From a bacterium (lineage in GTDB: Bacteria > JALSQH01), in the NCBI GenBank assembly GCA_026985515.1, contig JALSQH010000022.1, positions 1 to 5,114 on the forward strand: DNA of 5,114 nt, given 5' to 3'. The notes below the pieces were generated by a model. It saw only the letters and a list, made by a program, of their open reading frames with translations, ran no database searches and was not told the origin of the DNA. The number at the start of each line of letters is the position of its first letter. Position 1 is the stretch's first letter. The position numbers and the translations under genes were made by a program. This document shows, piece after piece, positions 1-4,210 of the stretch.

Positions 1-198
1 CTGAGAGAAATCGTTGGGAGATATGTAAAAGTGATAAAATTTAAGTAACATGGAAAAAACAGGGAATTTTTCGAGGCCTGGCATTCTACTTTCCTGTGTA
101 TGTGCAGGACTGAATGGCCACAGCCCACCTTCTGATCCATAAATCAAACCTGTGGAAACAGCAAAAATCAAAATATAACAGAGAAGCAACCTCCTCAA
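1..198 (-). CDS. Secreted YidD-like protein, 3' part beyond left edge
   Basis: This reading frame stays open for 66 codons from 198 down to base 1 and leaves the window, so the C-terminal part is missing. The chosen start is the TTG at 198-196. It has AGGAG (plus strand 206-210) seven bases upstream, overlaps the upstream stop as TTGA, and gives an MRR n-region to a signal peptide. The hydrophobic core is about residues 4-20, with possible cleavage near 21-22. A second TTG at 189-187 directly abuts a GGAGG and is less likely. After a linker of about 25 residues, positions 51-61 read LLKFYHFYISP. This matches the opening of YidD proteins (typically L.RFYQ.FISP, followed by a Cys-containing CRF.PTCS-like motif that would lie outside the window). 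YidD is a small membrane-associated protein that helps YidC/Sec-dependent membrane protein insertion. The classical form has no signal peptide, so this would be a longer secreted or anchored variant. The frame is clear; the family call rests on about 16 residues. Confidence 0.6.
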   Translation of the reverse strand, partial: MRRLLLCYILIFAVSTGLIYGSEGGLWPFSPAHTQESRMPGLEKFPVFSMLLKFYHFYISPNDFSQ

Positions 199-1013
199 AA
201 ACCCACTCCTGTTTTCAGGTTGAAAAAAATTCTACCACAATTACTACCAATCCCATAACCAGCTTCGATGCTCAGTCCTGTTAACTTCACAAGGAGGCTC
301 ATTCCACCATCAATCAGTAATACTGGAAACTTATCAACACCTTCCACAAAAATTTTCAAAAATGTACCTGAAGGAGGAAGGTTGAAATAAAATTCACTGG
401 TAGCGTAAAAATAACTGGTCAGAATATCATAATCCTGCTTAAAAGCTTTCATAAAAGGATAGCCTCCAATGTGAAAATATATTAGAGGAGCAGGAATAAA
501 ACCTCTGGAAAGAGAAAAAACAACATAATTTTTCATGGAAGCATTACTGCTTAAAGTGAATTTTTCATTAAATCTTATTCTCAATAATTTTCCAGTAACT
601 TTTTCAGATGTATGAAAAAATAAATAAGCAATTTTCAGCCCTTTTAGAGGTGTGAAAAGAATTCTTTCATGGATGAGTATGTTTTCTTCTGAAAACAACG
701 TTCCCGTGTAAATTGTTAGATAATCTTTTCTCATTCCCATGCCAGTTTCAAAATAACTTTTGTTTTTGCCAGTAGTTACACCTATCAGAAAGAAGTAATT
801 TCCAGAGTAGACACGATGATTCCCTGAACCTTCGAAGTATGGTTCACCTCTTTCTGATCTGTAGAGATGAAAATCAAGAAAAGTTACTGAAGATGTAGAA
901 TTATAATAAACTTCAGAATTAGTGTATGATGTTTGCAGAAAAAATTCAGAGGGAAAAAGATTTTCACACATGAACAAAAATAAAACAACTGGAAAAATTA
1001 CCTTGAAATTCAT
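195..1013 (-). CDS. Secreted protein, probable outer-membrane beta-barrel, function unknown
   Basis: This 272-residue protein is not recognised. Residues 1-22 form a signal peptide: MNFK n-region, hydrophobic core about 5-15, plausible cleavage after FPS at 20-22. Cys16 is preceded by FM rather than a lipobox, so a lipoprotein is unlikely. The mature part has no hydrophobic helix. It is made of short alternating stretches rich in Tyr, Phe, Ser, Thr and Gly (for example residues 72-80, 86-103, 162-170, 201-211 and 247-272) and ends in Gly-Val-Gly-Phe. A terminal Phe and this alternating pattern are usual for BAM-assembled outer-membrane beta-barrels. The start ATG has GGTGA (plus strand 1021-1025) seven bases upstream. 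The stop overlaps the TTG start of the YidD-like gene by four bases (TTGA), so the two are probably co-transcribed and coupled. No convincing promoter was found for it in the intergenic region. Secretion is well supported; the barrel is inferred from composition; no substrate or role can be named. Confidence 0.75.
   Translation of the reverse strand: MNFKVIFPVVLFLFMCENLFPSEFFLQTSYTNSEVYYNSTSSVTFLDFHLYRSERGEPYFEGSGNHRVYSGNYFFLIGVTTGKNKSYFETGMGMRKDYLTIYTGTLFSEENILIHERILFTPLKGLKIAYLFFHTSEKVTGKLLRIRFNEKFTLSSNASMKNYVVFSLSRGFIPAPLIYFHIGGYPFMKAFKQDYDILTSYFYATSEFYFNLPPSGTFLKIFVEGVDKFPVLLIDGGMSLLVKLTGLSIEAGYGIGSNCGRIFFNLKTGVGF
206..210 (-). promoter_or_regulatory. Shine-Dalgarno site deciding the TTG start of the YidD-like gene
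   Basis: On the minus strand AGGAG lies inside the last codons of the upstream gene, seven bases before the TTG at 198-196. This spacing favours that TTG over the one at 189-187 and suggests translational coupling of the two leftward genes. Confidence 0.55.
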
Positions 1014-1048
1014 GCTTTTATCACCACATATTCTTCACATAATTACAT

Positions 1049-1060
1049 AACTTGCAAGTT
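1049..1060. repeat. Perfect 12-bp palindrome in divergent intergenic region
   Basis: AACTTGCAAGTT is its own reverse complement. It covers the -35 hexamer of the rightward promoter and sits in the 117-bp gap between the two divergent gene pairs, 36 bases from the leftward start codon. Its position suits a dimeric regulator that could control one or both directions. A 12-bp palindrome can also arise by chance in AT-rich DNA. Confidence 0.45.
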
Positions 1061-1080
1061 TAACACAATAATGGTATGAT
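1052..1080 (+). promoter_or_regulatory. Predicted sigma70 extended -10 promoter for the 1131-2457 gene pair
   Basis: TTGCAA (1052-1057, four of six to consensus) is followed after 17 bases by TATGAT (1075-1080, five of six). TG at 1072-1073 gives an extended -10. Transcription would start near 1087, leaving a leader of about 44 bases before the ATG at 1131. The -10 is flanked by small arms TGGT (1072-1075) and ACCA (1082-1085). Confidence 0.6.
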
Positions 1081-1130
1081 AACCAGTAACAATTTGGGGA
1101 GAAAAAAACAAAAAATAAGGAGGTGTTTCC

Positions 1131-1622
1131 ATGAAAAAGTTTTTTACTGCTCTGGCAATTGTTGCAGCAATTTCTTTAACGGCTTACCCTGTCATACCAG
1201 CTCTTCATGCCAGGGAAGCAGGTATAGTTCAACAGGTTGATTATTATGAAGCTGCAGATGATTCTTCTGCTATAATTGCTGCAATTTTGTCAGTAATAAT
1301 ACCAGGGTTAGGACAAGTATACCTTGGATACATCGGTAGAGGAGCAATGATTTTTCTTGGATTTATTGTACTGGAGATCGTTGCGGGTATTATGGGTGTC
1401 TATATATATTATGCCGGTTGTATTCTTGATCTGATAGCTATCGTCTTCTGGATCTGGCAGATTGGCGATGCATACAAGCTTGGACTCAAAAAGGCAAGAC
1501 ACTACAGACGCCATAGGAGACACTACGACGAGGATGAAGATGAAGAAGATGAGGATTATGATGAAGATGAGGACAGCATGCTGACTCCTCATTTTACACC
1601 TGCCTATGTTGTCACTGAGTAG
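1131..1622 (+). CDS. Small membrane protein with PGxGQxYxG (TM2/DUF5683-like) module and acidic tail
   Basis: The protein has 163 residues. A signal peptide or N-terminal membrane segment spans about 1-27 (MKKFF start, possible cleavage after LHA). A short polar part (28-45, acidic) is followed by three hydrophobic segments at about 47-66, 71-91 and 94-112. The first carries PGLGQVYLG at 58-66, the small-residue motif seen in TM2-domain and DUF5683-like membrane proteins, whose biochemical roles are mostly unknown. The membrane part ends in IGDAYKLG. A basic stretch follows directly (119-131, with K119-K120 and several Arg and His), then residues 133-148, which are all Asp or Glu except Tyr143, then a short ordinary end. 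The basic stretch suggests a cytoplasmic tail by the positive-inside rule. The start is well set: AAGGAGGTG at 1117-1125, seven bases before ATG. The gene overlaps the next by 17 bases, and that neighbour carries the same module, so the two probably act together. Topology and module family are inferred. Confidence 0.8.
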   Translation: MKKFFTALAIVAAISLTAYPVIPALHAREAGIVQQVDYYEAADDSSAIIAAILSVIIPGLGQVYLGYIGRGAMIFLGFIVLEIVAGIMGVYIYYAGCILDLIAIVFWIWQIGDAYKLGLKKARHYRRHRRHYDEDEDEEDEDYDEDEDSMLTPHFTPAYVVTE

Positions 1623-2457
1623 AAAAACTATGGGGAGCTCTGCTCCCCCTTTTATCCTAATATTGATCATTTTTCCCTTTTTTGCTTCCGCTGATCTAAT
1701 TTCTGGAAGTCATAATTTCAGCTTTTACAAATGGCTGCTTCAGGAAGGGGATTACTATCGTGCAATTGGTGAACTGAGAAGGATACAGTGGAATTCTCCC
1801 AGAGAAAGATGGTTTTCCATAGAAAAAGAGATACTGCGTCTCTATCAGCTTTCAGGCCATATTGATGAAGGTTTGAAAGAATGGAGTAATTTTTCAAAGC
1901 TTCATGGCGAACTGATTTCAGGACATGAAAGGGAGTGGCTGCTAATAAAAACAAAACTTCTTCTGACAAAGGGTGATTTTTCTTCGGTATATCCTTTTCT
2001 GATAACTGTATCTACTCTTCCCGATGGAAAAAAGATATCTAATCTTTTAAAAGAAAGGGAAAAAATTTTACTTTCACCTTCAGATGAAGACAGGTCACCT
2101 CTTCTTGCAGGAATCCTTTCAGCAGTAATTCCTGGTGCAGGTCAGTGGTACGCAGGATTACCTGGGAATGGCATTTTCACATTTCTTGTAATATCTGCTC
2201 TTGGCGGAGGAACATGGTATTTGTATTCAAGAAATTCCTCCTTCTTTCCTCTTACTCTTACATTAACAATTCTCTTTTACGCTGGTAACATTTACGGTGC
2301 AGTCACCTCCACATGCAGGATGAATCTGATAAGAAAATGGAAAAAGTGGGAATATATTAAGGAAAAGGAAAACTTCAATCATTTAATTGAGATAAAAACA
2401 GGTCTTCCAAGCTCTGATAGATTTCTCCCAGGGATCAATTTCACATTTAAATTTTAG
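1606..2457 (+). CDS. Secreted/membrane protein: TPR-like helical domain plus PGxGQxYxG membrane module
   Basis: The protein has 283 residues. The signal peptide covers about 1-29, with Arg6-Lys7 in the n-region, a core at 16-27 and cleavage expected after ASA. The first ATG (1606) is preferred over ATG 1630 because only the longer form keeps those positive charges. Neither start has a good Shine-Dalgarno site, and the 17-base overlap with the upstream gene suggests coupled translation. Residues about 38-130 are amphipathic helices. One (38-60, with GDYYRAIGELRR) resembles a TPR helix pair, which would be a periplasmic protein-binding part. Residues 165-205 and 212-232 are hydrophobic. PGAGQWYAG at 176-184 and YAGNIYGAV at 225-233 match the layout of the upstream gene (PGLGQVYLG, later IGDAYKLG). 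A basic region (240-247) and an extended C-terminus ending Phe-Lys-Phe follow. As I recall them, proteins combining TPR-like repeats with this membrane module occur next to yidD-like genes in deltaproteobacteria-like genomes, which fits the left end here. Function unknown. Confidence 0.78.
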   Translation: MLSLSRKTMGSSAPPFILILIIFPFFASADLISGSHNFSFYKWLLQEGDYYRAIGELRRIQWNSPRERWFSIEKEILRLYQLSGHIDEGLKEWSNFSKLHGELISGHEREWLLIKTKLLLTKGDFSSVYPFLITVSTLPDGKKISNLLKEREKILLSPSDEDRSPLLAGILSAVIPGAGQWYAGLPGNGIFTFLVISALGGGTWYLYSRNSSFFPLTLTLTILFYAGNIYGAVTSTCRMNLIRKWKKWEYIKEKENFNHLIEIKTGLPSSDRFLPGINFTFKF

Positions 2458-2461
2458 CTCC

Positions 2462-2496
2462 AATCAAGAAAATTTCCCGTAACCCTCTTGATTTTT
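2462..2496 (+). terminator. Weak candidate intrinsic terminator after the 1131-2457 gene pair
   Basis: AATCAAGA (2462-2469) pairs perfectly with TCTTGATT (2486-2493) over 8 bp, with a 16-base loop. A run of five T (2492-2496) overlaps and follows the right arm. It starts five bases after the stop codon. The stem is AT-rich and the loop large, so termination may be partial. Confidence 0.4.
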
Positions 2497-2515
2497 GAAA
2501 AGTGATGGTTAAAAT
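2488..2515 (+). promoter_or_regulatory. Predicted sigma70 promoter of groEL
   Basis: TTGATT (2488-2493) and TAAAAT (2510-2515, five of six) are separated by 16 bases. Transcription would start near 2521-2523, just before the CIRCE operator, which is the usual arrangement for HrcA-repressed genes. The hexamers and spacing are the same as those proposed upstream of dnaK. Confidence 0.6.
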
Positions 2516-2526
2516 AATTTAAAAAA

Positions 2527-4210
<1,684 letters not shown>

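Follow-up and report, generated by a model that had tools for sequence, protein, structure and literature searches.

YidD is a nearly universal and poorly understood protein, named for an insertion role on the cytoplasmic face of the inner membrane. The locus analysed here raises the question of what a YidD with an export leader is doing beside other exported and membrane proteins, and which of these genes, if any, form one system. The window, that is, the whole stretch of 5,114 bases, is the entire contig C22 of genome G000, a 2.36 Mb draft of 97.6% completeness, and its base 1 is the contig edge. Its four exported or membrane protein genes do lie in two divergent pairs sharing one short gap, with a 4-base overlap between the barrel and YidD ORFs on the minus strand and a 17-base overlap between the small PG and TPR-PG1 ORFs on the plus strand, so that the preliminary description of the layout was accurate (Table 1). 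After TPR-PG1 the plus strand continues with groEL and then with the 5' part of an Hsp70 gene. Export, leader and topology calls throughout come from a hydropathy rule and not from a signal-peptide predictor.

Table 1. Coordinates of features in the window and at the other loci mentioned in the text
Location	Position	Strand	Feature	Remarks
Window	1..198	-	N-terminal part of exported YidD (leader and start of YidD core, ...KFYHFYISPNDFSQ)	66 aa, cut by the contig edge; BLASTP to G001 YidD
Window	195..1013	-	Exported protein, putatively an outer-membrane beta-barrel or of another all-beta fold	272 aa; opens the minus-strand operon
Window	1014..1130	.	Divergent intergenic control region	117 bases
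Window	1131..1622	+	Small PGLGQVYLG membrane protein (small PG)	163 aa; G001 relative
Window	1606..2457	+	TPR-PG1: leader, TPR-like helices, C-terminal PGAGQWYAG ... YAGNIYGAV membrane module	283 aa; profile A1, structure model, Foldseek
Window	1632-1648		Terminator-like hairpin GGGGAGCTCTGCTCCCC	T-rich tail
Window	2527-2553		CIRCE element	1 mismatch
Window	2582-4210	+	groEL	
L110 (contig C208)	1-141		C-terminal end of YidD	46 codons
L194 (G001)	2268-3641		Transposase-like gene	457 aa
L171	1989-2438		Small membrane protein 5' of LolA-like gene	No Pfam family
L175	6904-7305		Small membrane protein 5' of LolA-like gene	
L176	1986-2510		Small membrane protein 5' of LolA-like gene	
L184	2497-2880		Small membrane protein 5' of LolA-like gene	
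L187	1993-2517		Small membrane protein 5' of LolA-like gene	
L162	3096-3539		Small exported (C)CxGPRVG protein	No Pfam or NCBIfam family
L183	6203-6712		Small exported (C)CxGPRVG protein	
L119	5345-5884		Exported protein adjoining the module	No Pfam family
L169	5349-5906		Exported protein adjoining the module	
L177	2624-3202		Exported protein adjoining the module	
L232	3528-3881		Exported YidD lacking both core cysteines	
L233	3734-4135		Exported YidD lacking both core cysteines	
L234	3881-4282		Exported YidD lacking both core cysteines	

Promoter-like matches in the divergent intergenic region were not in excess of those in shuffled sequence. The hairpin, ten bases past the small PG stop codon, falls within the start of the TPR-PG1 ORF and could serve in attenuation of this second gene of the pair. 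The near-perfect CIRCE element, of a quality for which no occurrence was expected by chance, precedes groEL. No groES was found beside groEL, nor any Cpn10 in the whole 97.6%-complete genome, either through gene loss or through an assembly gap.

The YidD fragment of the window is too short to score and by itself gave no Pfam match. It aligns with the N-terminal half of the YidD of G001, a genome of the same family and the only close relative (40% over 50 aa, E 1e-9), and this relative is a complete, exported protein of 147 residues that passes the PF01809 cut-off (49.2 bits against 27). Another contig of the window's genome, C208, opens with the C-terminal end of a YidD, which matches the C-terminal end of the same G001 protein (64% over 42 aa, E 2e-18). 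A chance ORF is therefore ruled out by the complete gene, by both alignments and by the continuation on C208, and the edge gene, first described as YidD-like with a signal peptide, does run into a YidD domain. Since the YidD ends on C22 and C208 both match the G001 protein, only a short stretch of the gene is missing from the assembly, and the alignments make it very probable that the two contigs are neighbours across a short gap. Behind the YidD end C208 carries a fifth gene, encoding a second TPR-PGxGQ protein (TPR-PG2) with 33% identity to its G001 counterpart. The full locus would then very probably read barrel, YidD and TPR-PG2 in one direction and small PG, TPR-PG1 and groEL in the other. 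In G001, contig C87 (L194) holds the end of the barrel gene, the complete exported YidD, the second TPR-PGxGQ protein and then small PG in convergent orientation, while the order TPR-PG1 to groEL is kept elsewhere (L111), with a TPR-PG1 54% identical to that of the window. A transposase-like gene after the G001 module may explain the shift of small PG relative to the window layout. The genome of the window has in addition a canonical yidD on C260, between rnpA and yidC-like genes, and it is this gene, and not the exported copies with their hydrophobic leader, that occupies the canonical place. A second exported YidD (60.1 bits to PF01809), followed by a TPR-PGAGQ protein, lies on C51. The window holds part of one copy of a module, and C51 another copy in the same genome.

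Profile A1, built for TPR-PG, was searched against a wide sample of 290 genomes and gave strong relatives (full-length, better than 1e-20) in 44 genomes belonging to 37 families. When the DNA flanking these genes was annotated with the YidD and TPR-PG profiles, an exported YidD adjoined or was fused to the TPR-PG protein in 33 of the 44 genomes, from 28 families. In nine others the exported YidD is encoded elsewhere in the genome (G033, G035, G048, G080, G105, G117, G180, G221 and G263), and in two, G040 and G171, none was found, the TPR-PG gene of G171 being truncated at a contig end. Chance alone would put a YidD within 2 kb of a TPR-PG gene in about 0.1% of genomes. Moreover, a second YidD, as defined by profile A4, is present in 42/44 TPR-PG genomes against about 11/246 without TPR-PG, where the Fisher p of 8e-38 stands for a strong association and not for an exact probability, since related genomes are non-independent and A4 was built from adjacent pairs. 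The sampling apparently starts with a round of one genome per phylum: G188 shares the phylum of G043, whose four genomes are all positive, and G215 that of G074, with only 4 positive genomes out of 40. TPR-PG-bearing phyla thus probably number 25 or more, firm counts being those by family. A search of 29 further genomes added clear relatives in Poribacteria, in four copies, one of which (L222) has the order LolA-like, YidD, TPR-PG; in a Balneolales MAG (L224) a LolA-like gene and YidD precede two weaker tandem TPR-PG genes.

All 28 unfused pairs compared are on one strand; YidD leads in 26, and in most the two ORFs, with mechanically assigned starts, share 3 to 50 bases. Pairwise distances of YidD and TPR-PG correlate (r 0.68), and in a set thinned to 23 loci the correlation is r 0.30, a value reached by 1 of 5000 permutations; both coefficients still include shared species history. 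In five families the two proteins are fused. The fusions of G102 (442 aa) and G287 (419 aa, in the reverse order) have both YidD and TPR over the Pfam cut-offs, that of G137 has 426 aa, that of G145 (730 aa) joins one YidD to two TPR-PG units, and that of G185 (188 aa) consists of YidD and the PG module only. As both orders exist, fusion arose more than once. Tandem TPR-PG paralogues occur at about a dozen loci. Exported YidD and TPR-PGxGQ are one conserved two-component envelope module, encoded as an overlapping operon or a fusion in many families, and we regard a functional link between them as all but certain.

The same cannot be said of the other two genes of the window. The barrel candidate has a leader and a C-terminal F (...VGF), its single-sequence model is all-beta but of low confidence (pLDDT 37), and no Pfam or NCBIfam family matched it. 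Its only relative is in G001 (E 3e-8), where it is also 5' of YidD; none was found outside the window's family among 59 genomes, and the barrel was accordingly rejected as a conserved component. The small PG protein, in which a leader and hydrophobic segments are followed by an acidic tail with SMLxPxFTPxY at its C-terminal end, is 48% identical to its G001 counterpart, has a weak DUF6677 match under the cut-off, and was likewise seen in the window's family only. Both look like lineage-specific additions, as far as searched. The earlier view of the four genes as one system thus finds support for YidD and TPR-PG, which adjoin in at least 28 families, with fusions in five, and is not supported for the barrel and small PG; for the pair it is not the case that adjacency is limited to close relatives or that a YidD domain is wanting. 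The recurrent order of YidD followed by TPR-PG exists here as well, on the minus strand and partly on C208, outside the window.

Regarding the anatomy of the two conserved proteins, a hydrophobic stretch is present in the N-terminal extension of all 32 exported YidDs measured. The YidD core starts after about 40-100 residues in these proteins and after about 27 in the canonical YidD of the window's genome. Invariant residues of the core in profile A4 are C, P, C, R and D. In three exported YidDs both otherwise invariant cysteines are lost together, a hint at a paired function of these residues, for instance in a disulfide. By sequence, no relative of solved structure was found for the exported YidD. 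TPR-PG proteins consist of a leader, then TPRs, then PGxGQxYxG ... YxGNxYxA ... N near the end. TPR-PG1 of the window has no Pfam family match, but its residues from about 36 to 100 are confident helices in a single-sequence model whose best Foldseek matches are TPR proteins and BamD, the E-values being weak owing to the poor quality of the remaining model. The TPR-like part formerly noticed in one plus-strand protein is therefore real.

The partners that the module gains in distant bacteria are another TPR-PG protein and, in part of these lineages, a LolA-like one. The LolA-like gene lies immediately 5' of YidD, or of a small gene next to YidD, at ten loci of several families; it occurs at a minority of loci and is absent from both loci of the window's genome. 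The Pfam LolA match is over the cut-off for the L162 protein (28.3 against 23.6), below it for those of L171 and L175, and none was reported for L184, L187, L222 and L224. The best structural matches of the pooled profile were all LolA (E 6.6e-6), with E 0.23 when the two strongest members were left out. Several small proteins were seen around these loci: a membrane protein of 127-174 aa with a motif like GxSPEYVAxYTDxYKxKxK...GC recurs 5' of the LolA-like gene, an exported protein with two (C)CxGPRVG copies adjoins the YidD fusions of G137 and G145, and exported proteins of about 180-190 aa that look alike adjoin the module in three genomes of different families. Anti-phage defence was considered and rejected, with no PADLOC match found. 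Omp85 is encoded in 43/44 TPR-PG genomes against 34/36 without TPR-PG, which fits diderms yet is uninformative as a marker.

Given BamD-like TPRs in one partner and LolA-like carriers nearby, the best single reading is that the module assists in placing envelope proteins or lipoproteins or in handing them over. In the model, both proteins, judged exported from their hydropathy, would use Sec. The exported YidD would associate with a membrane from the periplasmic side, and the C-terminal PGxGQ ... YxGNxYxA module would anchor TPR-PG in a membrane with its TPR domain, resembling those of BamD and YbgF/CpoB, facing the periplasm and binding client or partner proteins. TPR-PG would thereby be anchor and receptor of the exported YidD, and the pair might place or hand over envelope clients, either membrane proteins or lipoproteins, mirroring from the periplasm the insertion step served by canonical YidD and YidC. 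A LolA-like chaperone in some lineages, and the beta-barrel and small PG protein in that of the window, would be add-ons. An accessory system for placing or assembling envelope proteins had been suggested from the window itself; what now stands of that suggestion is the linkage of YidD and TPR-PG, recurring in 28 families, while the role is proposed. Taken as a whole, a module with an envelope assembly or transfer role is a tentative statement, to which we give somewhat less than an even chance.

Other explanations of the pair have to be weighed against this model. TPR-PG could be the client, its PGxGQ module entering a membrane from the periplasm with the exported YidD inserting or folding it. 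The tight one-to-one linkage with YidD first, the naming of YidD as an insertion factor and the retention of just the PG module in the short G185 fusion agree with it; stable fusions, among them the one with two TPR-PG units for one YidD and the one in reverse order, agree better with a partnership than with catalytic help to a client, and many PGxGQ proteins exist without an exported YidD, so that we think it unlikely. We are no more inclined to a transfer of lipids or lipoproteins between the membranes, with the LolA-like protein as carrier and YidD plus TPR-PG as the docking or release site, which also has a small chance of being right: the ten loci with the LolA-like gene 5' of YidD extend over several families, Poribacteria and Balneolales included, but most loci, like both in the window's genome, have no such gene adjoining, and the LolA similarity is weak without its two strongest members.

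A scaffold or stress function of the envelope, with no insertion or transfer activity, would be in keeping with the common use of TPR proteins as scaffolds, and the position of TPR-PG1 directly 5' of groEL in both G000 and G001 would tie it to protein stress in the window's lineage. However, groEL carries its own CIRCE element and its neighbourhood was not seen at the loci of other families, which makes this explanation rather improbable. Chance or lineage-only adjacency of unrelated exported genes may still account for the barrel and small PG, which within the searches made were found in the window's family only; for YidD and TPR-PG it is refuted by the number of families, the fusions in two orders and the second YidD of nearly all TPR-PG genomes, and overall it is highly improbable. 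The boldest reading is a periplasmic-side insertion or transfer machine of many phyla, made of an exported YidD, a TPR-PGxGQ anchor and sometimes a LolA-like carrier. It would be a so far undescribed route for placing envelope proteins or lipoproteins, alongside YidC/YidD, Bam and Lol; such a pathway we consider doubtful.

The exported branch, having the same core and one specific partner in many families, provides a second, independent handle on the role of the YidD domain. If the core works alike on both sides of the membrane, any model that depends on the ribosome or on cytoplasmic parts of YidC as a contact is excluded. The fusions offer stable complexes for structure work, and two anonymous groups, the PGxGQ membrane modules and the LolA-like neighbours, gain a first clue to function. 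No report of the exported branch or of its pairing with TPR-PGxGQ was found in the open-licence literature, and description elsewhere is possible; on DUF5683 nothing useful was found.

According to Yu et al. 2011, as cited in PMC3573977 and PMC8082313, the YidD of E. coli aids membrane protein insertion near SecYEG/YidC. Exported copies share with canonical YidD (PF01809 / TIGR00278, membrane protein insertion efficiency factor) the core FYQ..IS..D...C....PSCS...A....G...DRL.R...DP and pass the Pfam cut-off, but differ in the leader, the longer N-terminal extension and the DPxE tail, and they adjoin TPR-PG instead of rnpA/yidC, being additional to the canonical copy. The periplasmic TPR proteins BamD (YfiO), which acts in outer-membrane assembly, and YbgF/CpoB, of the Tol-Pal system, have the leader and TPRs in common with TPR-PG and are its closest curated and structural matches; nevertheless, the TPR-PG protein of L114 scores under both cut-offs (YbgF 74.4 bits against 90.1, BamD 64.2 against 81.4), and TPR-PG proteins add the C-terminal PGxGQ membrane module and as a rule have no lipobox. 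DUF5683 and DUF6677 share the PGxGQxYxG start of the membrane module, whereas TPR-PG differs by the YxGNxYxA...N second half and the TPR part, and the matches stay below both cut-offs (14.5 bits against 26.7 and 18.2 against 24.3, respectively). The profile of the gene upstream of YidD in some lineages resembles LolA, the periplasmic lipoprotein carrier, although the neighbour protein is divergent and longer and is not encoded at the window's own loci. None of the domain types is new in itself, and the YidD part would get its correct name from public models; what is new, and well supported, is the partnership of YidD with TPR-PG.
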